Source: a virus
Virus record (IMG/VR): IMGVR_UViG_3300048007_000381
Span: 1 to 40,718 of that record
Direction: 5' to 3' (one strand)
DNA: 40,718 nucleotides
Shown here: positions 15,684-36,837 of the stretch, piece by piece
Position numbering within the stretch: the stretch's first letter is position 1
How the letters are laid out: the number at the start of each line of letters is the position of its first letter
Position numbers and translations under genes: made by a program
Notes under the pieces: generated by a model
Databases searched by the model: none
What the model was told of the DNA's origin: nothing
What the model saw: the letters and a program-made list of their open reading frames with translations, nothing else

Positions 15684-16355
15684 ATGTTCGGAGATATTTT
15701 AAGTGGTGCTGTTAATTTCGGCACTTCATATATCGGCGGTAAAAAAAGACTAGCTAGAAGAGGCGAAGCGCAGGGGGCGTATGACCAATCTATGCAGCAG
15801 TACTTTTCTCAGGATACTTCTAACTTGTACTCTAACTTAGAGAACACAATGGAAGACCTAACTGTTAATACTCAAGCAGCGGATTTTGCGGCGCAGCAGC
15901 AAGCACAAGGGTTATCTAATATAATGGGATCTATGAATCAAGCCGCAGGCGGTAGTGGTATCGCTGCGTTAGCACAATCATTAGCTAATCAGCAAGCGCA
16001 ATCAGCGCAGCAAGCATCTGCAAGTATAGGTCAGCAGGAACAAAGAAACCAGATGGCAGCAGCTGGACAAGCTGGTAGGCTCCAATCAATGGAGAGAGCC
16101 GGTGCGGAGCAGTCTAGAGCGTTAAAAGCTCAATTACTTGGTGAAGAATTTCAAATAGATGCAAACGAACTAGCATCGAGCGAGGAGGCAATCCAAGCAG
16201 CGAGGGCAGCAAGAGCTGACGCTGCAGGGCAATTCGCGGGGGGTGTTGGTAATGCAGTGGGTGCTGCAATGGGATTGCCAACAGAAACTCTCGGCAAACT
16301 AGGCAGCCTAGGTGTTGGGTTGGCTGATGCTGGTAGAATATTAGGTAAAAGATAA
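15684..16355 (+). CDS. Internal virion protein candidate (Ala/Gln-rich)
   Basis: A 223-residue, Ala/Gln-rich, mostly helical protein with a Gly-rich N-terminus (GDILSGAVNFGTSYIGGKK) and a Gly/Ala-rich hydrophobic C-terminal stretch (about 180-215: AGGVGNAVGAAMGLP). Amphipathic helices flanked by Gly/Ala segments are typical of short ejection proteins such as T7 gp14 and P22 gp7, which insert into the host envelope during DNA entry. Together with the next two genes it forms a three-gene set like T7 gp14-gp15-gp16. The stop overlaps the next ATG (TAATG). The leader ends in taattaaatATG. Confidence 0.6.
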   Translation: MFGDILSGAVNFGTSYIGGKKRLARRGEAQGAYDQSMQQYFSQDTSNLYSNLENTMEDLTVNTQAADFAAQQQAQGLSNIMGSMNQAAGGSGIAALAQSLANQQAQSAQQASASIGQQEQRNQMAAAGQAGRLQSMERAGAEQSRALKAQLLGEEFQIDANELASSEEAIQAARAARADAAGQFAGGVGNAVGAAMGLPTETLGKLGSLGVGLADAGRILGKR

Positions 16356-17527
16356 TGGCTAAGCAACAAGGATCAGGAGTAGTGGCGGCGGCACGTAGAG
16401 TGTCAGATACGCAGGGCAGGTTTCAAGACGTGGGCAGTCAATTTATGACCGGCTATAATAAATCTTTAGAAGCTAAAAAAGCACGCGAAGCTAAAGCTAA
16501 AGAAGGCATAGCTAAAGCTAACGCATTAATGGACGGGTTTAAAGATGATATTGACTACATGTCTTTTACTCCCGAAGAAGGTAAGCTAGTTAAAGACCAG
16601 GTGGTAACGTGGAGAAATGCATATGCTGATTTAGCGAATAAGGCTTCTAAAATAGAAGATAAAACAAGTCAGGAATATCAAATTTTGATGGACGAAATGA
16701 CCGGGTTTAAAAACCGTTTAGTTTCTTTAAAAAATAATATTGATGGAAGGCAGCAGTTAAAAGCTGACTTTAAAACAGATCTTAACGATTATTCTACAGC
16801 AGGTTTTAACGATGAAGCAATAGCTAAAGCTACTGTTATGTCTGCAACGCCATTTTCCGGTGTAAATGATAGAGGCGAACTTATGTGGTCTGATGAAGGA
16901 CTTGGTGAGTTCTCGTCTACTGGTTTTAAAATGCCGGCATCTAATAAGCCTGCGAAACAAGCAGCAGCAAATATATTTAACGAAGTAGAGCGCCAATCTA
17001 ACGCGCGCGGCCCTTTAACCCCAGCTCTTAAAGAGTCGTTAAGAAATAAGTTAGATAACAGCATTGGGAGTAAAGAAAATCTTTTAAGTTTTATAGCAGA
17101 CAATCAATTTGAGATTTTTAAGTTTGACGACTTAGACCCAGAATCTGATATTAACGAGCTTCGTGAAACTGTATTAGATAGACTAATGAATGGTTTAGAA
17201 AGTACAAGAGGAGCAGCACTTATTGAAGAAAAGCCTTCCAAGCCTCAAGGGGGAGGAACTACAGCTACTAATGTTATAAAGCCTAAACTAGTAGACACGG
17301 TTGAAGCTATGCAACTACTAGAAAACGAGGAGAATTCCAGCGTGCCAGGCCCAATTCAATTAAAGGAATTTGAACTTGGACCGACGACCGATCCAGGTAG
17401 TATTAAAGTTACGTGGGATCCAAAAAGAAAAGAGTGGACTTATTTAAATGCAGTGTTCAGTGAGGATAAAAGCTATAAAACTTTAAAAGAAGTTATGATT
17501 TCTCACCCTAGTCTTTTTTACAAATAA
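16355..17527 (+). CDS. Internal virion protein candidate
   Basis: A 390-residue hydrophilic protein, second of the proposed three ejection genes. Residues 1-140 are helical and Lys/Ala-rich (KSLEAKKAREAKAKEGIAK), with coiled-coil character. The middle contains polar loops. Residues about 320-390 are beta-like (LKEFELGP, SIKVTWDPKRKEWTYLNAVF), possibly a small C-terminal beta domain. It has no catalytic motif, signal peptide or membrane segment. The position between the Ala/Gln-rich protein and the giant ejection protein matches gp15-like proteins. It starts at the TAATG overlap; the giant gene starts 18 bases after its stop. Confidence 0.55.
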   Translation: MAKQQGSGVVAAARRVSDTQGRFQDVGSQFMTGYNKSLEAKKAREAKAKEGIAKANALMDGFKDDIDYMSFTPEEGKLVKDQVVTWRNAYADLANKASKIEDKTSQEYQILMDEMTGFKNRLVSLKNNIDGRQQLKADFKTDLNDYSTAGFNDEAIAKATVMSATPFSGVNDRGELMWSDEGLGEFSSTGFKMPASNKPAKQAAANIFNEVERQSNARGPLTPALKESLRNKLDNSIGSKENLLSFIADNQFEIFKFDDLDPESDINELRETVLDRLMNGLESTRGAALIEEKPSKPQGGGTTATNVIKPKLVDTVEAMQLLENEENSSVPGPIQLKEFELGPTTDPGSIKVTWDPKRKEWTYLNAVFSEDKSYKTLKEVMISHPSLFYK

Positions 17528-17545
17528 TATAAAATACAATAGCGA

Positions 17546-20500
17546 ATGTACATTATAGGAGATAAAGAATTATCTGATGAGCAAGCCCGCGATTTTGCCG
17601 CTAAATTCGGCAGTGAACTTGACGTGCTTGCAAAAAAATACAACTGGCAGTATGTTGCTGGTGATGTGGGAAAGACAACGGTTCCGGAGGACACGACTCC
17701 GCCGACGGGACCAGGATTAGCAACGCCCGCTGGGGAATCCAGATTGGGCATTACTTTATTGGAGTCACCCGTAGCTAGCGCCCCTAAAATTAACGAATAC
17801 GTAACAGCCGAAGATTTAAAAGGAAGCGAAGAAAAGGTTTCTAAAATGCTTAACGAGAAGCTTTCTGGCTTGGGACTTTACGTTACAGAAGGCACCGGCA
17901 TGCATTCTTGGGACGCTGTTAACATAAGAAAACGTGACGAAAAAAGAAACTACTCGCCTTACGGCGCTATACAAACAGTTCGTACCGGTGTCGAGTTTGG
18001 GCCAGAGCTTTCGGAAGAAGAGCTTAGTGAAAAAGCCGCGGAAATAAACCTTAAAATAGAGGAGTTAAAAAACGATAACTACCTTACAGAAGCTCAGGAA
18101 AGATCAGGTGCTAAGTATGATGAATACAAAGCGGCCACAACCCCTGAGCCACTTTCTGAAAAAGAAGCCTTAAATCTTTACGAAAAAGAACGTGAGGAAA
18201 AGTTCAGCAATATTAGACGCTTCCGAGATAACAAAGGTTTTGATGTTTCTTTTGAGAACGGCGACTTTGAAAGCGTTGAAGAAGAAGAGCAATATAAAAA
18301 ATACTTAGCAGGTAGCTACATAGCGCCGCCTAATAAAGAGCGGTTAACAGCATGGGAAAATGCCCGCAATGAGGGTTACACTTCAAAGCAGTCATTAAAG
18401 TTTGCGAACAATCTTGACCGCCAGACTAGGTTGGACCTAGAAGCTATAGCGGCTAATGAAAAAGCTATAGCGGAAGAACGCGTTGGTGCTTTAAATAAAA
18501 AATACGAAAGCCAATCCGCAGCCTACGAAGAATCTTACAATGCTTTTGAATCAAACCCAACCGAAGAAACCAGGTTGGTTGCGCTTGCTGATTTTGAAAA
18601 TTTACAACAAACATTATTAGAAGGCAGGGAGCTAGCGAAAGATAGCAAAGGATTACCTTTGGCTATTAAAGATTTTGGCGCTAATTACAATAGACTACAG
18701 CAGTTGACTAGTAATTTTAAAGGCTTGGCTGCAGACGCTAATTACCTTACCGCTCAGTTAGGCCAGTTATTAGGAGACGACCCGAAATACAAAGAGGCTG
18801 CATTTCAAATGGCAGCTGGCATAAAAGAAGAACAACAAAAGTTTCAAAGGTCTGTAAAGGTTGATGAAATAGGTAGCCTGCAAGAAGCGGGTATGTGGCT
18901 AGCATCGTCTAGCACCAGTCTTATTCCTTCTTTGGCTATGGCGTTTACGGGACCAGCAGCACTGCCTTTGTTTTTTGCAACAGGTGCGGGTAGCACTGGT
19001 GTGGAAACAGCAATTGCTGAAAGAGACGCGGCAAAGCGCATGCTTAGTAACCGTGAGCTCCTAGATGGTAATCCAAATATAGATGCTCTTGAGCGCTCTG
19101 CTATTGAAGAGCAAATGCAAAAAGACTCTAAAACGTTAAACATACCAGAATGGCGTAAGATTACGGCACAGGTTTGGAACGGTTTAGCAGAAGTTGCGTT
19201 TGAAAGAACAGGTACTTTGTATTTACTTAAAAGCTTGAAACAAGGAGCGAAACTTTTACCACCTAAAACAATTAAGCAGGCGGCTATTAAGCTAGGTAAA
19301 GACGTTGTTAAAGGCATTAGAGTTGAAGGTGGATCCGAGTGGGCTACAAATACCTTCCAAAACTTTGCTGATATTTATATATTAGATGAAGACAAAAACT
19401 TTTTTGAAGCTATTACTGACGAAAAGCTTTTTGAAGAAGGTTTAGAAACTTTTGCACAAGGTGCCTTAATGGGTGGCGGCATGTCTGTAGGCGGTAATTT
19501 TGGGGCTATTAAAGAAGCCTATTTCAGCGAGCTAGCCACAAGTAAAGAAAGCGCTAGGCTAAAGGAAATAATAGCTAAACTAGAGTCTTTAACCGGTGTT
19601 AAAGGCCTTACAAATGCCGGTGACGGTGTTCCTTTGCCACAGCAAACTCAAGAAGTGCAAGCCCTCGTTGAAGAACTTACAGGAGAAGCTAACGATATAA
19701 AAAACAATGTTATCGCTCGTTTAGGAGTGGATTTAACATTAGAGGATGCTAAAGCAGTAGGCGATATAAACCGTCAGATGCGCAAAGTTAACGCTGACTT
19801 CGTAAAGCTTGCATCGAACACTGATTTAGGTGCGGCTCAATTAAAAGCTATAGAAACAGAATACAGAGCCAAGTTTGATAAATTAGCCGAGCAACGAGAA
19901 GATATATTAACCAACGAGCAGTTAAGCACAAAAAATTTAAAGGCATCAAGCGGCAACAAGGTTGTATTTGACGCACAGACCGGTTATGAGATGTATCAAG
20001 ACCGCATGCTTAATGAAAGCATGGTTGGCATAGCGCAAGAATGGAATAAAATGCGTGGTGGTAAAAAAACAGAAATGTTTAATGCCGCAAAAATTGAATT
20101 AGAAAAAGAAGCCGGCCCAGGTAAAGCTATAACAGCGGAGGCCATTGAGAAGCGCGCGATAGATAACTTTGAAAATTTAAAGTACGCTGAAAAAATAGAA
20201 AGCGGCGCAAAAAACGTTGAAGATTACGCTAAGGCTAACAATATAAACGTACGCATTGAAACATTTGACGGAGATAATGCCTCAGCGGCTTTTGAGCAAA
20301 GGCTATTAGATTTAGGGTACAGTAAAGAAAAAGCTGCTGAAGTAGCAGAAGAATCTGAAGAATCTGAAGAAGGCCCTAAACTAGAAGTAGAGGCTATAAA
20401 TATACCTGGTAAAAACGGGGAGCCAGATATTATACTTATTAATAAACCTATGTCCGTTAAAAACAAAAGGATAGGTGTTTATGCTCACGAGCTTCTTCAC

Positions 20501-23500
20501 TCAATAGCCCGTCAAAAATTTAACACTACTGATGTTACTAAAGCGGGTGAGGAGCTTCTTGGTTATTTAGAAAAAAACCAACCTGACCTGTACACTAAGG
20601 TTAAATTTAGAATAGACCAAAGCTACACTGAGACAAGTGAAGACGGGGAAGTAACGAAAGACGCAGATTATTACGAAGAGGCGATGAACGCTATGTCTGA
20701 TGTTATTGCAGACGGCCAAGCGGTCGATAAAAACTTTTTGTTACAAGCACGTTCTTTTGTTAATAGTTGGCTGCCCGCTTCAATGCAACTTAAAAGCGAT
20801 GAAGCTACTTACCAGTTTATTAGAGGCTTTAACAAACAAGCACACTTCGGCGGCAAAGGTCCTGCTTTAAACATTAAGGACAAAACCGTTGGTGATCGCT
20901 CTGATGAAGAAGCGCCAACTGCAAAAGAATCAAGAACGCTTACGCCTGAGCAAGACGCTGGCGTAATAGACATGCTGTCTAGGCGTGCCGGAAGAATTGA
21001 GGAGGCTAAAAAAGTAGCTGAAAAGTTCGGCGTTGAGGTTCAGGCTGACGCCGTACAACAACGTCTTGAAGCAAAAATTAGAGAACAACTAAGCCCCCTT
21101 ATTGGCAAAATTGTTACTAATCGTACTAAAGCATTGTACGATCCGATTGCACCAGAGCAACGCAATAACGTATCTCGCGAAGATTTCCAAAACTCTTTAA
21201 GAACAGAGATTGAAACTTTAGCTTTTGAGGAATTTAAAGAAGGCAAGCAGGATATTGAAAAGTTCTTGGTCAACAGAGCGTTTCTAAGATCTAACAACTT
21301 AGCCTCTAGATTAGGTATTGAATCGGCAAAAACAGGTGGTATTAAGAAAGACATTGACACTGCTAAAGGTATGGCGGCGCAGGAAGAGACCACAGCTAAG
21401 GAAGACAAGCCACAATACAAAACTCTGCTAGAACGCAGGGTTTTAGACAGCGAAGTTGTAAATTCAATTAAAGAAAAAGTTAAATCAACCGTGCGTGTTA
21501 TGAAAACGCGTATGGATGAGTCCGTATCTAAAAACGTTACTGTTAAGCCATATATTGCCGAGCTTCGTAAAGCTATGGGCAAACAAGCTGACATCGACTT
21601 AAAGAAAGCGATGGGCGGCAAGAAAGACGGTGAACTTCGTAAATTCCTTTTGCGTAACAAAGCTGCTATTTTGCAGAACATGACTACCACGTACTTGATG
21701 ACGGCTATGCCTAATGCTATCCAGAAAAAAGTTAACGGTGTATGGACAAGTGATTGGAAGGGTAAGAAAATTGATAGAGAGTCTGTAGACACAGACAAAG
21801 CGGGCCGCACATCAGGTGCAGAGCTTGTTAGAAGACTACCTAATGCATCAACTAGATTATCTGATGCTGATTACTTATCTAACATTTTAGACGCGTCTGG
21901 AGCGCCTATACGAGGCCGCAAAGAATCTTTAGCTAAAGCAATGGCGGAGGAAATTTCTTTTGATATTGTTAATGAGGCTTTGCAAGACCCTAATAGTGAA
22001 ATTCGCCAGGCGTTTGAAATGCGTCAAGACTTGCTGGGGGTTGAACTTGTGGATAATTATACCACTCAAGCGATAGTAGACATTGAAAGGGGCAATGTAA
22101 AATACAGCCTTTCTGCGGCTCAATACGGAGAGTTTAACGATCGCATGGGTAGTTTAAAAATTATTATTGATAGCCAAAATACCGGAAATCTTACTAATGC
22201 CAGATTGCGCAATGCTTTAATTAAAACCTTTGAAAACGAGCCTAGCGACATTATTACTGAAAAAGAAATAAAGAAATTTGCCAACGAGTCTTTTAATACC
22301 GTTAAAAGATATCTTAGTAAACCAGAAGCGCAAGATGTAAATTTTGCCTCGTTTGTACAAGAGGGTGTTGAGCTGTCTAAACAAAAAAGCAACCTAATGC
22401 TTGCTTTGGATATTGCTAAATCATCATTAAAGGGTGGATATAAAGCTCTTTTTGAAAATAAAAACTTAGTTAACAGACAAAGAGGCCTAAGCTTAGATTT
22501 TAATACCAAAACAATAGAAGAGCAAGGAGTAAAAGGTTTAATAACGGTACTAAAATGGATGCGTGGGCACCAAACCACTTCCGGAAAAATAGGCGGTGGT
22601 CGAATGCAGATATACGCTGGTGTTTCGGATTTTATTAATAACAATTTAAATACAATACCAGGTGTTAAAATAGAATACAAAACCGGGGGTGCAGGCGTGG
22701 TGATAACCAATGTATCTTACAAAGGCGAGACTGTTAAAGACTGGAAAAAACTTACATTAACACCCGCTCAGACAGCTACAAAAACGGTCAGCAAAGATGG
22801 TGTTAAAGCAAAAGCGCCTATTTCTAAAAAAACATTTGAAGAGCAATATGACCAAAGAGTAAAAGAAGCTAGGGAAGCTTGGGAAGTACTTACTGATTAT
22901 CTATCTTACGTTAATGAAAACGGCAATAAATTAGACTGGGTCATGACAATGATGAGTCTTAAGAGTAACATGTCTAGTATGCTTAAGGCTGCTGCCCCTG
23001 TTAAATATTACCATACAGGCGCGCCAACTGCTAATTTAAGATATGAACACATGATACCTACTGAGTACATGGTTCTTAAGTTAACTCAGCATTTCAAAAT
23101 TAAAAATATAGATTTAAATAAACTAAGAGACAAATACAACGTGGCTATTATCCCTGTAAAAATGGATGACAACTTTAACATATTGGTGCAGTCTCAAATG
23201 AATTCTAATTTTGATTTAGAAACAGACAGTGAAGTATTTAGATATTATAACAAAGGCACCTATGGCTTTAAAAACATGGAAGCGCTTGAGGTTATTGGCG
23301 GCAAAAATAAAGGAGAAGTTATAGGTGAAGGTTGGGTTAAATTTAATAAAGAAATTAATGCAGAAGAAGCTGCTAAAGCTATTGAAGAAGTAAAGCAGGT
23401 TGAAAGAGCTAAATTTAGTAAATCACCAAAAGCGGAAGAGCTAAGTAAAAAGTTTAACAATATACTTGAACGTAAAACAGGTGTTGAATCATTTAAAACT

Positions 23501-25582
23501 TTCTCCGCTGTACAAGCGCAAAAGCGTGGTGAAAAGAAAGGCAGGTTTAAATTCTTTGTTGCGCCTAGTGTTGATGATTTTAGAGGCTTAGTTAACTATG
23601 CGTTCGCTGGTAAGGGCAAACAGGGTGAAGCTGATATGAAATGGCTCGAGGATAACTTAATGACGCCTTACGCTAAAGGTGTAGCCGCTATTGATGGCAT
23701 ACGTCAACAAATTAAGCGTGACTTTAAATCTGCTGTTAAAGCTTTCCCTAAGCAATACCAGTTACTAAACAAAGAGATTGGCAAAACAGGTTTTACCTAT
23801 GATCAAGCTGTTAGAGTTTACTTATGGGGTAAAGCTGGTATTAAAGTACCAGGCTTGTCTCAGAAAGATACGAAAATACTACAAGACGCTATTCGTGAAA
23901 ATCCAGAGTTAATGGACTTTGCGGACGCAATGCTTGTTGTTGCTCGCCGCGATACTTGGATGGAACCTAGTGAATACTGGGCTGGTAATACGCTACTGTC
24001 GGACCTTAACAGCATGACCGAAAAAATTGGTCGTAAAAAATATTTAGAAGAGTTTATAGCAAACGCTGATGCAATATTCACCACGGAGAACCTAAATAAG
24101 ATTGAGGCGTTGTACGGCAAAGCACATCGCGACGCAATTGAAGACTCTTTGTACTCAATGAAGAACGGCACAAACCGTAACGCGGGAGGCAATAAGCAGG
24201 TTAATGCATGGTTAAACTGGATTAACGGTTCTACAGGCGCAATCATGTTCTTTAACAGACGTTCTGCATTGTTACAGATGCTTTCGTTTACTAACTTTAT
24301 AAACTGGTCTGACAATAACCCCGTTAAAGCAGCAGCTGCGTTTGCTAACCAAAAGCAATATTGGTCTGATTGGACTATGATATTTAACTCGGACAAGCTT
24401 AAAGAGCGTCGGGGTGGTTTAAAGCAAGACGTAAGTTCCGATGAAATTGCTAGTGTAGCTAACGCAAGTAAAAATAGCCCGCAAGCTATTTTAGCTAAGT
24501 TGTTACAATTAGGTTTTACACCCACTCAAATTGCGGATAGTATGGCTATTGCAACAGGTGGCGCTATGTATTACCGCAACCGCGTTAACGCTCTGATTAA
24601 GCAAGGCGTGTCACAAAAGGATGCAGAAGCGCAAGCGTTTATTGATTTTTCTAAAAAATCCGATGAAGCCCAGCAGTCCTCAGATCCGGCATTGGTGTCA
24701 CAGCTGCAAAGAAGCACACTAGGGCGTCTTATATTCGCTTTTCAGAACACCCCTATGCAATATACCCGCTTAATGAAAAAGGCGGCGTTAGATTTAGCTA
24801 ATAACAGAGGAGATTGGAAAGAAAACGTAAGTAAGATTGCTTATTACGGTGTAATACAAAACTTTATATTCTCAGCATTACAAAGCGCGTTGTTCGCTAT
24901 GTTGCCTGGGTTTGATGATGATGAAGAGGATCTTACTGCTGCTGAGCTAGACAAGAAGAATGCTAAGGAAGAGCAAAAGATAACTAGAGTATTAAACAGC
25001 ATGCTCGATACTGTACTTAAAGGCTCAGGTGTATATGGGGCGGTTTTCTCTACTGTTAAAAACATTATTAGAGAATACGATAAGCAAGAGAAAAAAGGTT
25101 TTATGTCCGATCATGCCTATACTGTTTTATCTTTATTTGATATATCGCCGCCTATCGGTTCTAAGGCTCGCAAAGTATACAGCGCAATTCAAACAAGGAA
25201 GTTTGAGAAAGATGAAATTGCAGCACGTGGCTGGGGAGTGGTAGCAGACGGAAGATTAGACTTAGGTCCTAATTGGACAATACTAGGCAAGGTTTTATCA
25301 GCTTCTATCAACTTGCCGCTCGATCGTGTGGTTGATGAACTTACTTCCGTGAGCGAAGCATTCGATGCACGCAACAAAGCGTGGCAGCGTATAGCATTAG
25401 GCTTAGGTTGGAAAACATGGGACGTAGGTGCTATAGAGGAAAACGCGGAAGCTATTAAAGAAGCCGCAAAGAAAGAGCGCAAAGAAGCTGGAATAGAAAA
25501 AGCGAAAGAAACTAGAGCTGCAAACAAAAAAACCAAGAGCAGGGGAAGAACTGTTAAAACAAGAGGGGGAAAAACACGATGA
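17546..25582 (+). CDS. Giant ejection protein with metallopeptidase motif
   Basis: A 2678-residue polyprotein-like internal virion protein, about twice the length of T7 gp16. The N-terminal 440 residues are charged and helical. A hydrophobic Gly/Ser/Ala segment at about 449-486 (SLIPSLAMAFTGPAALPLFF) could touch membrane. Residues 981-985 are HELLH in the context RIGVYAHELLHSIA, the zinc-binding motif of zincin metallopeptidases; Glu1044/1045 in YYEEAMNAMSDV may supply the third ligand. The long centre is Lys/Glu-rich with scattered globular segments. The last about 450 residues look most conserved-like, including MFFNRRSALLQM and FQNTPMQYTRL (about 2398), then a hydrophobic stretch at about 2431-2457, and end in a basic Arg/Lys tail. 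It would be packaged in the head and ejected with DNA, possibly cutting peptides in the envelope. It overlaps the endolysin gene as ATGA. Confidence 0.7.
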   Translation: MYIIGDKELSDEQARDFAAKFGSELDVLAKKYNWQYVAGDVGKTTVPEDTTPPTGPGLATPAGESRLGITLLESPVASAPKINEYVTAEDLKGSEEKVSKMLNEKLSGLGLYVTEGTGMHSWDAVNIRKRDEKRNYSPYGAIQTVRTGVEFGPELSEEELSEKAAEINLKIEELKNDNYLTEAQERSGAKYDEYKAATTPEPLSEKEALNLYEKEREEKFSNIRRFRDNKGFDVSFENGDFESVEEEEQYKKYLAGSYIAPPNKERLTAWENARNEGYTSKQSLKFANNLDRQTRLDLEAIAANEKAIAEERVGALNKKYESQSAAYEESYNAFESNPTEETRLVALADFENLQQTLLEGRELAKDSKGLPLAIKDFGANYNRLQQLTSNFKGLAADANYLTAQLGQLLGDDPKYKEAAFQMAAGIKEEQQKFQRSVKVDEIGSLQEAGMWLASSSTSLIPSLAMAFTGPAALPLFFATGAGSTGVETAIAERDAAKRMLSNRELLDGNPNIDALERSAIEEQMQKDSKTLNIPEWRKITAQVWNGLAEVAFERTGTLYLLKSLKQGAKLLPPKTIKQAAIKLGKDVVKGIRVEGGSEWATNTFQNFADIYILDEDKNFFEAITDEKLFEEGLETFAQGALMGGGMSVGGNFGAIKEAYFSELATSKESARLKEIIAKLESLTGVKGLTNAGDGVPLPQQTQEVQALVEELTGEANDIKNNVIARLGVDLTLEDAKAVGDINRQMRKVNADFVKLASNTDLGAAQLKAIETEYRAKFDKLAEQREDILTNEQLSTKNLKASSGNKVVFDAQTGYEMYQDRMLNESMVGIAQEWNKMRGGKKTEMFNAAKIELEKEAGPGKAITAEAIEKRAIDNFENLKYAEKIESGAKNVEDYAKANNINVRIETFDGDNASAAFEQRLLDLGYSKEKAAEVAEESEESEEGPKLEVEAINIPGKNGEPDIILINKPMSVKNKRIGVYAHELLHSIARQKFNTTDVTKAGEELLGYLEKNQPDLYTKVKFRIDQSYTETSEDGEVTKDADYYEEAMNAMSDVIADGQAVDKNFLLQARSFVNSWLPASMQLKSDEATYQFIRGFNKQAHFGGKGPALNIKDKTVGDRSDEEAPTAKESRTLTPEQDAGVIDMLSRRAGRIEEAKKVAEKFGVEVQADAVQQRLEAKIREQLSPLIGKIVTNRTKALYDPIAPEQRNNVSREDFQNSLRTEIETLAFEEFKEGKQDIEKFLVNRAFLRSNNLASRLGIESAKTGGIKKDIDTAKGMAAQEETTAKEDKPQYKTLLERRVLDSEVVNSIKEKVKSTVRVMKTRMDESVSKNVTVKPYIAELRKAMGKQADIDLKKAMGGKKDGELRKFLLRNKAAILQNMTTTYLMTAMPNAIQKKVNGVWTSDWKGKKIDRESVDTDKAGRTSGAELVRRLPNASTRLSDADYLSNILDASGAPIRGRKESLAKAMAEEISFDIVNEALQDPNSEIRQAFEMRQDLLGVELVDNYTTQAIVDIERGNVKYSLSAAQYGEFNDRMGSLKIIIDSQNTGNLTNARLRNALIKTFENEPSDIITEKEIKKFANESFNTVKRYLSKPEAQDVNFASFVQEGVELSKQKSNLMLALDIAKSSLKGGYKALFENKNLVNRQRGLSLDFNTKTIEEQGVKGLITVLKWMRGHQTTSGKIGGGRMQIYAGVSDFINNNLNTIPGVKIEYKTGGAGVVITNVSYKGETVKDWKKLTLTPAQTATKTVSKDGVKAKAPISKKTFEEQYDQRVKEAREAWEVLTDYLSYVNENGNKLDWVMTMMSLKSNMSSMLKAAAPVKYYHTGAPTANLRYEHMIPTEYMVLKLTQHFKIKNIDLNKLRDKYNVAIIPVKMDDNFNILVQSQMNSNFDLETDSEVFRYYNKGTYGFKNMEALEVIGGKNKGEVIGEGWVKFNKEINAEEAAKAIEEVKQVERAKFSKSPKAEELSKKFNNILERKTGVESFKTFSAVQAQKRGEKKGRFKFFVAPSVDDFRGLVNYAFAGKGKQGEADMKWLEDNLMTPYAKGVAAIDGIRQQIKRDFKSAVKAFPKQYQLLNKEIGKTGFTYDQAVRVYLWGKAGIKVPGLSQKDTKILQDAIRENPELMDFADAMLVVARRDTWMEPSEYWAGNTLLSDLNSMTEKIGRKKYLEEFIANADAIFTTENLNKIEALYGKAHRDAIEDSLYSMKNGTNRNAGGNKQVNAWLNWINGSTGAIMFFNRRSALLQMLSFTNFINWSDNNPVKAAAAFANQKQYWSDWTMIFNSDKLKERRGGLKQDVSSDEIASVANASKNSPQAILAKLLQLGFTPTQIADSMAIATGGAMYYRNRVNALIKQGVSQKDAEAQAFIDFSKKSDEAQQSSDPALVSQLQRSTLGRLIFAFQNTPMQYTRLMKKAALDLANNRGDWKENVSKIAYYGVIQNFIFSALQSALFAMLPGFDDDEEDLTAAELDKKNAKEEQKITRVLNSMLDTVLKGSGVYGAVFSTVKNIIREYDKQEKKGFMSDHAYTVLSLFDISPPIGSKARKVYSAIQTRKFEKDEIAARGWGVVADGRLDLGPNWTILGKVLSASINLPLDRVVDELTSVSEAFDARNKAWQRIALGLGWKTWDVGAIEENAEAIKEAAKKERKEAGIEKAKETRAANKKTKSRGRTVKTRGGKTR

Positions 25583-28474: not shown

Positions 28475-28737
28475 TGTACACGCAAAGTAATTCCCCGTTC
28501 AAAAAAGTCAGAAAGACTAAAGAAGGTTTGGCCCTTAAACGTTGGTTTAAAGAAAAATGGGAAACACCTAGTGGTAAAGAAAACTACGAAGGCGGGGAAA
28601 ATACTTTTAGACCTACTAAGCGCGTTTCAAAAGACACGCCCGCTACGTGGAGCGAATTAACTCCAGCGGAAAAAGCTAGAGCTCAAAAAGAAAAAAATAC
28701 TAAAGGCAGAGTAAGCCGATACAAAAAAAATAAATAA
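28474..28737 (+). CDS. Small basic protein, LKRWFKEKW type
   Basis: An 87-residue basic protein whose sequence includes LKRWFKEKWETPSG (about 21-34), a FRPTKRVSKDTPATWSEL stretch (about 46-63) and a Lys-rich end. The first part resembles the domain that often accompanies the PSAYASG-type family of the gene just upstream, as if one ancestral protein were split into two genes or two related small proteins were kept together. It is coupled to both neighbours by TAATG overlaps. No catalytic motif is visible. It may be a small DNA- or virion-binding protein. Confidence 0.6.
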   Translation: MYTQSNSPFKKVRKTKEGLALKRWFKEKWETPSGKENYEGGENTFRPTKRVSKDTPATWSELTPAEKARAQKEKNTKGRVSRYKKNK

Positions 28738-31586
28738 TGGCAAGAATACAGACTTACATTGTAGATACAGTACTATCAGATACTGATTTAATACTGGGCT
28801 CTAACGCGGATAACTCTTTAGACACGGTTAATTTTAAGTTAAGCGACGTTAAAGCTTATGTATTAGGCACCGGCGTTGTAACCAGTGTTTCCGGTACTGG
28901 AACAGTTAGCGGTTTAACCTTAACAGGAACGGTAACATCTTCTGGTAATTTAACACTAGGTGGAACCTTAGCTTTGACTAGCAGTGATATAACATCCGGG
29001 TTAGGGTTTACGCCTTATGATGCTGCAAACCCAGATGGTTTTACTAGCAACCCTAGCTACGACTACGGTGCTGTAGGCGCGGCTGGAAATATAAATATGG
29101 CACTAACCGGGTCAGACGGTAGCAACGATGTTGTGACTATACAGGCTGGTAATCACATTACCCTTACTGATAACGGTAGTAATACATTTACAATAGCTTC
29201 CACCGGTGGTGGTGGTGGTGGCGCGGGAGTTACTTCTTTTACCAATGTTAACGGACAATTTGTAAGCGCTGCGGTTTCTAATAGCGGTGCAACAGGCGCT
29301 GTTACTACGGGTGCGATAGACTTGTCAGCTACGGGAACACCTAGCTCAACCACATATTTAAGAGGTGACAACACGTGGGCAACACCTGCGGGCAGTGGCA
29401 CAGTAACTGAGGTGACTGCGGAAGTCATTCCGAATACTAGCGCACTTGACGTTACTGTAGCAAATAGCACTGTTAATCCTAATATAAGCATTGCATGGCA
29501 GGGTCCTGACAATACTAGACTTGTCGCCGGAGATGGTACCTTAGTGTTACCTGTTATAACAGCAATAACAACCAACAATAGTAGCGGTGTTGCGACTCTT
29601 GCCAATAATGTACTAAACATACCGGATTATTCTGGGTCAAGCATAACATTAACCACCACAGGCACTACTGGCCCAGCTACACTTGCTGGAGGGGTATTGA
29701 ATGTACCCAACTACTCGTCAAACCCCGGGGGTGGAACGGTTACAAGAGTAGGGGCTCTGAACGGAACATTTATAAGCAGTTCAAGTGCAGACATTACTGC
29801 CACTGGTGATTTAACTTATGATTTAAGCGCTACAGGAACACCTAGTGCAACATCTTTCTTAAGAGGTGATAATACATGGGCAACACCAGCGGGCAGCGGT
29901 ACAGTAACCGAAGTAACCGGTGGTCAAACCGCATTTATACGGGTAATTACAGCTGACCCAGACACAACACCTGTGATTACTGCGTCATTAAACGCAACAG
30001 GGCAAACTCCTGACGCTGGTAACTTCCTGCGTGGCGACAACCAATGGGCAGATGCGATAATTTTAACCACTAACGGTACATCCGGGGCTGCTCAGTTTAA
30101 CAGCACTACTGGAACATTAAATATACCGGAATACTTAGGCGTCGCTGTGCAAAGCGTAGGCGTGTCAATGCCTTCAGCCTTTACCGTTTCTAATTCACCT
30201 ATAACAAGTCAAGGCACAATAGCTATTTCAGGCGCTGGAACTGGCGCGCAATATGTAAATGGATTAGGCGCGTTAGCAGCATTAAACACAATACCTACAA
30301 ATATAAATTTAACAACCACAGGAACCAGTGGAGCGGCTACATTATCAAATAACAATTTAAATATACCACAATACGTTACTCCAGCAGCTGGATCAAACGG
30401 CGATGTACAATTTAATAGTAACGGTGCTTTTGCTGCAGAAGGTGAATTTAACTACGCAACATCCACAAACACTTTAACCATTGCAGGTGTTGTTAACCAA
30501 CCTTCCTTAAAGCTTGCTAGCGCTCAGCAGACTACCCCATTCTCGGGTGCTTTATTATCTGAGATTGAGTCGTATTATTCTTCAACAGAAGTTGGTAAAA
30601 TAAAATTTGTAGCTGACGGCAGTTTCAATCCAAGCAGCAGCCCTTCAAGATTAGAGATTGAAACAACCTCTGTTAACAGTACGGTTGCCGACACTAAGTT
30701 AGAAATAGCTAACAACGGCCAATTGCGCTTAAACAAATATGGGTCAAGCGCTCCTTTTTCAGGTGCACCTGTATCTTCTCTTGCTGTTGATGCTAACGGT
30801 TATGTTATAGAAAATGCTTTTTCTCGGCCAGCAAGTGCAACTAACATATCTTACAATACAAACTTAAATCCAGTGGCTAATCAATATAGTGTTGAAAGTG
30901 TAAGTAGCGGATCAATTGGAGCCCCTAGTGGCAATGGAAAAGTTAGAGTTCGCTACGTGACTTCAGCTGAGGCGCAAAATGTGCAGGAAATTACCGTTGC
31001 TAATAACCAACTTGACGGAACAAATAACGCCCTGGCGCTCCAGAACATGGCTGTTGGTGGAACAATTACTCTTAACCAAGTGGGTGGTGGCGCAAGCGGT
31101 ATCCTTACGTACACTATTAAATCAAGAACTAACGAAACAGGTTATGTAAGATTTGACCTAGTATTTGTTAGCGGGAATGCTACTTATGTAATATTAACCA
31201 CTACAACAGATGCCTTCACATTCACAGCGGATTATGAACATGCATTATCAGGGGGATACAATAGATTGTCAGTCACTAATGCCTCCGGGAGCACGACTAA
31301 TAGGTTTAGAATGGCACCGCCAGCTGTCGCAACGCCTGGTCAAGAAATTATTGTTGAACTGAATAGGTCTAGTACGGCTGGTGCTAACATGATTCCTGCT
31401 TATGTAGTGCGCGATGGCAATAGCACTTTTCTGAAAACAAGATCTATTGTTGAAATCGAAGGTACAACTATAAATGTAATAAGCTTAGGCACTAACGATA
31501 CAGCTATAATTAAATTCCAAGTCAACGTAATAGGCGGCGTTAAAGGTTTAACAGTTCTTGGTTCAAACCAAATGATTTATGCTTAA
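28737..31586 (+). CDS. Tail fibre / receptor-binding-like protein with repeats
   Basis: A 949-residue Thr/Ser/Gly/Asn-rich protein with almost no Cys, typical of trimeric tail fibres that bind the host surface. An early N-terminal segment (MARIQTYIVDTVLSDTDLIL) could dock to the tail. Residues about 40-160 are Thr/Gly-rich, followed by a GGGGGG hinge at 157-162. Repeats fill the centre: LRGDNxWA at 208, 375 and 431, and (T)TxGTSGxATL...LNIPxY at about 278, 305, 443 and 524. The C-terminal third changes to a less repetitive, more hydrophobic region (about 550-949), probably the receptor-binding tip. No intramolecular chaperone (S74) motif is seen. The gene overlaps the next gene by 8 bases. 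Confidence 0.75.
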   Translation: MARIQTYIVDTVLSDTDLILGSNADNSLDTVNFKLSDVKAYVLGTGVVTSVSGTGTVSGLTLTGTVTSSGNLTLGGTLALTSSDITSGLGFTPYDAANPDGFTSNPSYDYGAVGAAGNINMALTGSDGSNDVVTIQAGNHITLTDNGSNTFTIASTGGGGGGAGVTSFTNVNGQFVSAAVSNSGATGAVTTGAIDLSATGTPSSTTYLRGDNTWATPAGSGTVTEVTAEVIPNTSALDVTVANSTVNPNISIAWQGPDNTRLVAGDGTLVLPVITAITTNNSSGVATLANNVLNIPDYSGSSITLTTTGTTGPATLAGGVLNVPNYSSNPGGGTVTRVGALNGTFISSSSADITATGDLTYDLSATGTPSATSFLRGDNTWATPAGSGTVTEVTGGQTAFIRVITADPDTTPVITASLNATGQTPDAGNFLRGDNQWADAIILTTNGTSGAAQFNSTTGTLNIPEYLGVAVQSVGVSMPSAFTVSNSPITSQGTIAISGAGTGAQYVNGLGALAALNTIPTNINLTTTGTSGAATLSNNNLNIPQYVTPAAGSNGDVQFNSNGAFAAEGEFNYATSTNTLTIAGVVNQPSLKLASAQQTTPFSGALLSEIESYYSSTEVGKIKFVADGSFNPSSSPSRLEIETTSVNSTVADTKLEIANNGQLRLNKYGSSAPFSGAPVSSLAVDANGYVIENAFSRPASATNISYNTNLNPVANQYSVESVSSGSIGAPSGNGKVRVRYVTSAEAQNVQEITVANNQLDGTNNALALQNMAVGGTITLNQVGGGASGILTYTIKSRTNETGYVRFDLVFVSGNATYVILTTTTDAFTFTADYEHALSGGYNRLSVTNASGSTTNRFRMAPPAVATPGQEIIVELNRSSTAGANMIPAYVVRDGNSTFLKTRSIVEIEGTTINVISLGTNDTAIIKFQVNVIGGVKGLTVLGSNQMIYA
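29325..30374 (+). repeat. Imperfect coding repeats in the tail fibre
   Basis: Two repeat types alternate inside the fibre gene. Type 1 (SATGTPS....LRGDNTWATPAGSGTVTEV) is found at 29325-29417 and 29826-29918, nearly identical in protein but differing at many third codon positions, plus a diverged copy at 29991-30050. Type 2 (TTxGTSGxATL......LNIPxY) is found at about 29568-29630, 29649-29714, 30063-30134 and 30306-30374. Synonymous differences between copies show that they are old and kept by selection on the protein, rather than recent duplications. Confidence 0.75.
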
Positions 31587-35758: not shown

Positions 35759-36004
35759 TTACTCCTCGGAGCTCTGTGCTTCATATGTTTCTTTGGCTTT
35801 TTGTAAATACAAGACTGCATCCATGAGTTCTTCTTGTAAGTGATTAAGCCAAGCAAGCATTTCACTAGGATCGTCTTGCAACGTTACGCCGTACTTTTCA
35901 AAGCCGACATTTGATCGACCCACAAACTTTTGGCATACACGGCGTACAACTGGGTCACGGAATTGCATTGGCACGATAGTATCGTGTGATTTTATTGGAT
36001 TCAT
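35759..36004 (-). CDS. Small MazG-like / phage conserved protein
   Basis: An 81-residue helical protein with VGFEKYGVTL followed by WLNHLQEELMDAVLYLQK, a pattern with an EExxDA helix that resembles the metal-binding helices of all-alpha NTP pyrophosphatases, although too short for a full MazG fold. It follows the MazG fusion gene with an ATGA overlap, so the two are co-translated and may act together. Without a second ExxE helix, catalysis on its own is doubtful. It could be a regulatory or dimer partner. Confidence 0.5.
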   Translation of the reverse strand: MNPIKSHDTIVPMQFRDPVVRRVCQKFVGRSNVGFEKYGVTLQDDPSEMLAWLNHLQEELMDAVLYLQKAKETYEAQSSEE

Positions 36005-36837
36005 AGTGTGCTGGTTTTAGATTGTAAGTAGTCAGAGAATGCATTGTTACTTGGCATTGTTTGTTTTACAAACGAGCCGTTGACCATAGAACCACGTCTA
36101 TTAGAGATCTCATCGTAAGCAGACTCAATGCAATCTTCAATACGGACGCCTCCAAGGTGGGCAAGGTTGGTGAGAACAACAACGCAATCACCAATAGCAT
36201 CAATAAACTCCTCGTTATCATCCCTAAGTACAGCTTGAGCAAGCTCTCCTGCTTCTTCATATAATTTAATTAATTGTGTCTTTGTATCGCCTTTAGCGTA
36301 TATACCCCGATCATCTGCCCATCTGCGGATATCGCCAAATATAGTTTCACCAAAGTCTTCTTTTGAATGCACGACACTATTGTGGCGAGTTTTGTCAAAT
36401 TCAAACATAGCCTTGTTGTAAATGTAACAACGCTCATTGTTGAAGCGTGATGTTAGTGCATTGTCAACAATCCACTTTACTAACGGCTTGTCTATTGTAA
36501 CGCGATGTCCGTGCGGTGTTACCCAACTTAAACCTATGTTGTCCATAAGACGACCTTTTAGTTTGTTTAATGGTACAGGGAATGTTGTTGTTTGATCGGT
36601 AATGTTTACTCTCATTTGTTTTGGTTTAAAAAGGTTTTTGTATAATTCAGTGTCAACTCTATAGCCGTAAGACTTTTGAAGTTCTATCTCCAACTGTGAT
36701 ATCTCGTCGATATCTTCACCCGTAAATAGAACTTCGTATTCGTCTGGAGCGTAGCCTTGCTGCTCCGTTACTCTCTTATTAAGATTACGTGTTACGCCTA
36801 TTTTTTTACCCGGTATGTGATAAATATAGTATGTCAT
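36001..36837 (-). CDS. GIY-YIG-like domain fused to MazG pyrophosphohydrolase
   Basis: A 278-residue protein with two recognisable parts. Residues 1-60 follow the GIY-YIG plan: YYIYHI, then KIGVTRNLNKRV with Arg17, then a helix ISQLEIELQKSYGYR with candidate catalytic Glu. Residues about 185-245 are a MazG-type all-alpha NTP pyrophosphohydrolase: YEEAGELAQAV and EEFIDAIGDCVVVLTNL, with metal-binding E194, E195, E198, E210 and D213. The central about 100 residues are unassigned. MazG enzymes hydrolyse (d)NTPs and can lower ppGpp in infected hosts; the GIY-YIG part may be a nuclease or may no longer be active. The stop overlaps the next start (ATGA). Confidence 0.7.
   Translation of the reverse strand: MTYYIYHIPGKKIGVTRNLNKRVTEQQGYAPDEYEVLFTGEDIDEISQLEIELQKSYGYRVDTELYKNLFKPKQMRVNITDQTTTFPVPLNKLKGRLMDNIGLSWVTPHGHRVTIDKPLVKWIVDNALTSRFNNERCYIYNKAMFEFDKTRHNSVVHSKEDFGETIFGDIRRWADDRGIYAKGDTKTQLIKLYEEAGELAQAVLRDDNEEFIDAIGDCVVVLTNLAHLGGVRIEDCIESAYDEISNRRGSMVNGSFVKQTMPSNNAFSDYLQSKTSTL

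Follow-up and report, generated by a model that had tools for sequence, protein, structure and literature searches.

P0001, the 2678-aa product of an open reading frame that occupies 19.7% of the window (the whole 40,718-nucleotide stretch of viral DNA analyzed here), is a modular protein in which a domain with conserved metal ligands and an exchangeable cassette lie between the N- and C-terminal domains, and in which the short linker peptides at the cassette edges co-vary between lineages at the peptide level. The explanation of the whole that we favor, with confidence slightly above even, is that P0001 would be a giant cargo (ejection) protein of a crAss-related marine podovirus infecting Bacteroidetes-type hosts, that it carries a zincin-type metallopeptidase together with an exchangeable enzyme cassette, and that its linkers would be cut by one factor. 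A sequence-only reading of this DNA had described a 2678-residue gene product taking 20% of the window, and the frame is indeed open over that length (Table 1). That reading did not mention the exchangeable cassette, the linkers that co-vary at its edges or the strongly conserved C-terminal domain.

Table 1. Positions in the window of P0001, its parts and its neighboring genes
Feature	Position	Strand	Basis
Muzzle (tail-tip) protein, 1458 aa	11276..15652	+	Pfam crAss_MUZ 6e-15, crAss_MUZ_C 7e-9
390-aa protein, position of phi38:1 gp100	16355..17527	+	gene order only
Giant modular protein P0001, 2678 aa	17546..25582	+	ORF and translation; 37 loci in IMG/VR
N-terminal virion-protein domain, residues ~380-800	18683..19945	+	profile matches phi38:1 gp101 and elemo structural protein
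Zincin-type metallopeptidase domain (best reading), residues 870-1130	20153..20935	+	alignment A1; AF2 model
HELLH, residues 981-985	20486..20500	+	H981, H985 invariant in 34; E982 >90%
E1045, putative third zinc ligand	20678..20680	+	invariant in 34 relatives
Conserved spacer domain (residues 1277-1516); its terminal ERGN directly precedes linker 1	21374..22093	+	profile match in 66/100 giant proteins
Linker peptide 1, VKYSLS, residues 1518-1523	22097..22114	+	junction windows; permutation test
Swappable cassette, residues 1522-1955, module with invariant EHxxP	22109..23410	+	similarity break in close relatives; A4 alignment; AF2
EHMIP, residues 1834-1838	23045..23059	+	E, H, P invariant in 32 aligned modules
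Linker peptide 2, AKFSKS, residues 1955-1960	23408..23425	+	junction windows; permutation test
Conserved C-terminal domain, residues 1964-2665	23435..25540	+	61% mean column identity, 24 relatives
M15-family endolysin, 3' of P0001	25579..26043	+	Pfam Peptidase_M15_3, PHROG endolysin

Genomic setting and terminal domains of P0001

P0001 gave no match by tblastn against 50,697 phage records, nor in Pfam or PHROGs scans, and its relatives were therefore taken from IMG/VR. There we found 37 loci for P0001 and at least 581 stretches that encode a relative of its C-terminal domain; with the exception of two cultured groups, the relatives are metagenomic contigs. Because a 63,892-base IMG/VR sister contig encodes a 99.96% identical version of the protein, the window is a fragment. 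Upstream of P0001 lie genes for terminase, portal and structural proteins and for the muzzle protein, which carries the crAss_MUZ and crAss_MUZ_C domains of a Crassvirales-type virion and has relatives in Cellulophaga and Flavobacterium phages. Judged by this Pfam match and by the homology of the P0001 N-domain to structural proteins of cultured phages, the window is part of the genome of a crAss-related marine podovirus. The 390-aa protein encoded just before P0001 is, from gene order, a possible second cargo or ejection protein; no sequence match to phi38:1 gp100 was found.

No giant RNA polymerase was recognized for this phage, which may therefore use the host RNA polymerase. The remainder of the sister contig (L126 and L127) encodes a Cpn60 chaperonin and a sigma-70-like protein. 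Elsewhere in the window, one minus-strand ORF (36001-36837) joins a T5orf172 (GIY-YIG-like) domain to a MazG/PRA-PH pyrophosphohydrolase domain, and a 949-aa protein of repeated low-complexity units (for example TTTGTSGAATL; 28737-31586, plus strand), for which no family match was obtained, is probably an adhesin or tail fibre.

The N-domain profile of P0001 matches gp101 of Cellulophaga phage phi38:1 (Pervagoviridae; iE 6e-40) and the 3667-aa structural protein QMP86235 of Elemovirus, a group of cultured Flavobacterium phages (iE 1e-35). This homology to annotated structural proteins makes it likely that P0001 is packaged in the virion, and injection into the host together with the genome likewise appears likely. 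The proposal of a metallopeptidase inside an ejection protein thus stands at the level of the family, while the ejection itself is not visible in the P0001 sequence. Phi38:1 gp101 occupies the same gene position after the muzzle and has hydrophobic segments in its N- and C-terminal parts; P0001 has one predicted segment in each terminal domain (residues 459-477, by hydropathy, and 2435-2453). In contrast to P0001, gp101 has only 1691 aa and lacks an HExxH motif, linkers and a cassette. The Elemovirus protein shares with P0001 both the N-domain and a metallopeptidase (HEIFH), but differs in its middle and C-terminal modules, and the P0001 C-domain, which belongs to no Pfam family, was not detected in it. 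We propose that the conserved N- and C-terminal domains would serve particle loading and envelope passage.

Corresponding giant proteins of PhicrAss001 have been found in virions by mass spectrometry (PMC10172136). Its gp47 (262 kDa; Bayfield et al. 2023, PMC10172136) is virion cargo encoded at the corresponding point of the structural module, where the muzzle gene and two smaller cargo genes precede it, and like P0001 it contains one HExxH motif (HEAFH at 2157). Unlike in P0001, this motif lies near the C-terminus, and gp47 is annotated as RNA polymerase-associated. The A1, CT, J1dom and whole-length profiles of P0001 found no match in gp47, and the N-domain profile reached an iE of 0.13.

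The N-terminal half of P0001-type proteins is exchanged between phages whose C-terminal domains are more than 90% identical. Among the cultured Flavobacterium phages, the 3.7-kaa virion proteins of elemoD (L124) and elemoA (L122) are near-identical except for a swapped N-terminal segment (~140-900 of elemoD). One 4044-aa family member (L115), with HEILH and several KFS-type peptides, possibly contains more modules than usual.

The HELLH domain

The HELLH motif noticed in the sequence-only reading is present at residues 981-985 and is the sole HExxH of P0001. In an alignment of 34 relatives (A1; 21% mean identity), H981, H985 and E1045 are the only invariant columns of residues 870-1130, and E982 is conserved in more than 90%. 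Among 87 domain-profile matches, H[E/D]xxH is kept in all, with HExxH in 86 and HDxxH in one. E1045 lies 60 residues past H985, in agreement with the earlier remark that acidic residues follow the motif at about that distance. The AF2 model of the domain (pLDDT 77.8) contains strands, an HExxH helix (109-122, model numbering) and then a second helix (176-186) that opens with E1045. This helix order fits the zincin core and agrees with the zincin MPTase core described in PMC5512222. P0001 thus shows two features of the zincin superfamily, an HExxH helix with both histidines conserved and, in a second helix, a later residue (Glu or His in the superfamily, here E1045) as putative ligand.

Comparison with solved structures gave a less decisive picture. 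Foldseek returned no match at E <= 0.001, with the zincins lethal factor, ACE and BlaR1 among the weak top matches (E 0.75-4.5), and the closest profile match to a solved protein was an M48 peptidase (weak, E 0.08). The structure prediction called for by the earlier reading therefore placed the helices as in a zincin, with the Glu helix starting at E1045, but did not yield a significant solved-fold match. In a viral structure library, the model matched a protein of an uncultured virus (E 9e-5). Its match to the elemo structural protein was weak there and is confirmed by a direct profile match to the metallopeptidase of that protein (iE 1e-11). Coliphage N4 virion RNA polymerase is likewise a giant ejected protein with a conserved HExxH domain, C1 (PMC12633501), and shows the same strand-then-HExxH-helix pattern in a weak profile alignment; this alignment (hhalign P 0.015 over 38 columns only) falls below any membership threshold. 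Unlike in the N4 protein, no RNA polymerase domain was recognized in P0001.

In principle HELLH could have arisen by chance, or have a purely structural part, in an otherwise ordinary ejection protein, a reading to which the want of a significant PDB match and the weakness of the M48 similarity lend some room. We consider this very improbable, given that two histidines and a glutamate are invariant where mean identity is 21% and that HExxH is kept in 86 of 87 matches. The loss of HExxH in relatives, named in the sequence-only reading as an outcome that would refute it, did not occur. The most fitting reading of residues 870-1130 is a divergent domain of the zincin type in which a Glu is the putative third ligand. 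This bears out the suggestion of a metallopeptidase, with peptidase activity predicted from the conserved residues.

The exchangeable cassette and its linker peptides

Close relatives are near-identical to P0001 except from about residue 1523 to about 1928-1958; L003, for example, is 94% identical to P0001 as far as residue 1523 and 83% identical from 1928 onward, and the stretch separating the two shows no match. Residues 1522-1955 are a variable, exchangeable cassette. In P0001 the cassette holds a module with an EHxxP motif, which is present in 59 of 100 giant proteins and whose E, H and P are invariant in the A4 alignment. The module has no Pfam match and no PDB fold match. In its AF2 model (pLDDT 84.8), EHxxP sits at a strand end and is followed by a later strand and helix, and we regard a His-Me finger (HNH) nuclease as possible from this model. 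Other modules found in the cassette slot of relatives are a HAD-like phosphatase and a P-loop kinase that matches Zeta_toxin/AAA_33 in Pfam (down to 1e-15). In the full-length set (86 proteins), EHxxP occurs in 55, the HAD motif in 50 and the kinase in 13. The pairing of kinase and phosphatase in one slot resembles the T4 Pnkp-type enzyme. In T4 Pnkp the two are in tandem, whereas in L068 (~1995-2370, protein residues) and L069 the kinase is nested in the HAD-like module, between a DFDDT-like start and an LTAR motif. P0001, unlike these relatives, has neither kinase nor HAD module. In another relative (L071, residues 983-1830), at least five KFS-type peptides occur in series, suggesting several small cassettes.

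The linkers were located by profile-defined domain borders. In proteins of the KFS class, which is the commonest, the density of K[FYW]S per 1000 aa reaches 78 and 44 in the two linkers, compared with 0-1.4 elsewhere. Within one protein the linkers match each other although their junctions are not homologous, and from lineage to lineage they change in step (KFS, KRS, KSN, KKYR, KESKG). Thus KKYR occurs at three junctions in L036 and L038, and at two in L023, which has KKFR at the third; KAS[IL] occurs at three junctions of L027; and two junctions each carry VKESKG in L101, VKSSIAP in L057, KSNKS in L086, IARS in L097 and VKRS in L058 and L068.

Within-protein similarity of the first and last linkers (J1 and J2) was 17.8, compared with 12.4 +- 0.55 for permuted partners (n=41, z 9.7, p<5e-5), and the match persisted in 15 diverged proteins (z 5.0). 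The junctions before the HAD module and before the C-domain (JH and J2) behaved similarly (z 6.5), and the kinase junction pair showed a small effect in the same direction (n=11, p 0.03). Since the sequences are related, these permutation p-values overstate certainty; by the more conservative nearest-relative test, a protein's own J2 fitted better than that of its nearest relative in 21 cases and worse in 8, with 8 ties (Wilcoxon p 0.001). A whole-protein search for copies of the J2 linker was weak (12 of 91 at 5%) because a six-residue match is lost in 1500 or more residues, and only the junction-restricted tests are informative.

Linkers that coincide with exchange boundaries might be DNA-level repeats that promote cassette exchange by homologous recombination. 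The codons make this highly unlikely. Identical linker residues share a codon in 63 of 119 cases, the level expected from codon usage (55.3), and in 10 of 18 proteins the linker serine is TCN at one site and AGY at the other. We accordingly rejected the DNA-repeat reading; codon sharing near expectation and mixed serine codon families indicate that selection acts on the peptide and that something reads the linkers. Other proteins of the window showed no pattern that would mark them as substrates, with K[FYW]S at most once or twice in each, and the module junctions of the elemo giant proteins lack this motif. In the MT497083 giant protein (L122), LTSRFQANF and PSVRMQKPK (SRFQ/VRMQ), seen by eye near 1660 and 2270, flank the middle module and are possible elemo-specific junction peptides.

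Possible readers of the linkers and relation to polyvalent proteins

We read the linkers as processing sites of a cleavable cargo polyprotein, judging from sequence patterns; since the peptides lie where modules meet, cleavage is the simplest interpretation. The lineage-specific peptides at the cassette edges would be recognized by a single factor with sequence specificity, most probably a protease, which would cut P0001 into separate working parts around the time of ejection. Linkers might instead be docking or spacing motifs, recognized while the particle is loaded by, for example, a chaperone, the portal or the C-terminal domain, and their co-variation with lineage and with the C-terminal and spacer domains would fit such a particle interaction partner. 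They are found at module boundaries wherever a module begins, however, and are almost absent elsewhere, which suits cutting better, and we judge the docking reading quite unlikely.

If the linkers are cut, the zincin domain is an obvious candidate for the cutting, in the head or after injection. Apart from this domain, a Peptidase_S74 autochaperone and the M15 endolysin, no candidate endopeptidase was recognized in the window or in what remains of the sister contig, where Pfam recognized no trans-acting maturation protease. Members without the metallopeptidase (phi38:1 gp101, L118, L139, L141) also lack linkers, and there is a precedent in P1 DdrB, cited in PMC5512222, where processing by their own MPTase is proposed for polyvalent proteins in general. 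Linker type follows lineage rather than the metallopeptidase, however. Linker similarity correlates with that of the spacer domain at 0.60 (which may reflect the physical linkage of linker 1 to this domain), with the C-domain at 0.39 and with the metallopeptidase at 0.16; the partial correlation between linker type and metallopeptidase is r 0.02 (p 0.31, partial Mantel), identity being a coarse measure of protease specificity at the metallopeptidase divergence seen. Where the metallopeptidase has been swapped (<=25% identity) and the C-domain is alike (>=75%), 22 of 28 pairs retain their linker class; where metallopeptidases are alike and C-domains have diverged, 10 of 19 pairs have a common class, near background. 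For example, L003 and L022 both have KFSK linkers and metallopeptidases only 15% identical, whereas L022 and L027 have metallopeptidases 48% identical and linkers of the KFS and KAS types. The partial Mantel test and these natural swaps do not support a metallopeptidase that sets linker type.

In addition, one member (L138) has the metallopeptidase but no recognizable linker or cassette; enzyme-less members lack linkers as well, so that the presence of linkers follows that of cassettes and not that of the enzyme. Self-processing by the zincin domain, a special case of the favored explanation, is on balance rather unlikely. The linkers may be read by a host protease, by a phage protease that escaped recognition, or by the metallopeptidase itself if its specificity is broad.

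The metallopeptidase might also have a role unrelated to the linkers, as an injected effector that cleaves a bacterial protein, for example in defence or the envelope. Catalytic residues that stay invariant amid extreme divergence are expected of a host-conflict enzyme, the metallopeptidase is exchanged between otherwise near-identical proteins (L003 and L022), the N-terminal half is exchanged above conserved C-terminal domains, and L138 has the enzyme independent of linkers. On the other hand, the divergent N-terminal half may reflect mere structural recombination, and the effector niche is already occupied by the cassette, which is likewise exchanged rapidly. We hold a host-directed effector to be somewhat improbable, and retain the reading of P0001 as a cargo polyprotein whose linkers would be processed.

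The likeness to polyvalent proteins proposed in the sequence-only reading is supported by those that carry a zincin-like MPTase (Iyer et al. 2017, PMC5512222). Like P0001, these are very large multidomain phage proteins adjoining virion genes, they combine an HExxH and later-Glu zincin with mixed enzyme domains, and MPTase processing has been proposed for them. Several unrelated enzymatic domains per polypeptide occur in relatives of P0001 (metallopeptidase plus kinase and/or HAD plus EHxxP); P0001 itself has the metallopeptidase and one module, EHxxP, whose activity is unassigned by Pfam or PDB. Unlike in polyvalent proteins, Pfam LPD families are absent from 73 cassettes and linker type does not follow the MPTase. 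In P0001, which has no Pfam match and a weak similarity to the N4 MPTase, none of the described domains of the LPD or MPTase clades was found. In the main text of PMC5512222, the word "linker" is absent and "cleavage" is used three times, and we did not find co-varying linker peptides described. We place P0001 among proteins of the polyvalent or ejected kind, with a linker code that we have not found described.

Cutting of giant injected phage proteins by their own metallopeptidase has been proposed before, but we did not find concrete candidate cut sites named. The linkers of P0001 are specific candidate cut sites in a very large uncharacterized family, and their pattern of natural variation indicates that they are read as peptides. 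Among cultured phages, the Flavobacterium elemo phages provide distant relatives that have the metallopeptidase. The enzymes of the cassette (PNK-like kinase, HAD phosphatase and EHxxP module) are plausible early weapons or repair enzymes that would be delivered before any phage gene is expressed. More broadly, we put forward tentatively, at somewhat under an even chance, that marine crAss-related phages package a polyprotein bearing a lineage-specific cut code at every junction, that this code would be read by one protease, not necessarily the embedded metallopeptidase, and that the same bounding code would make the cargo enzymes interchangeable.
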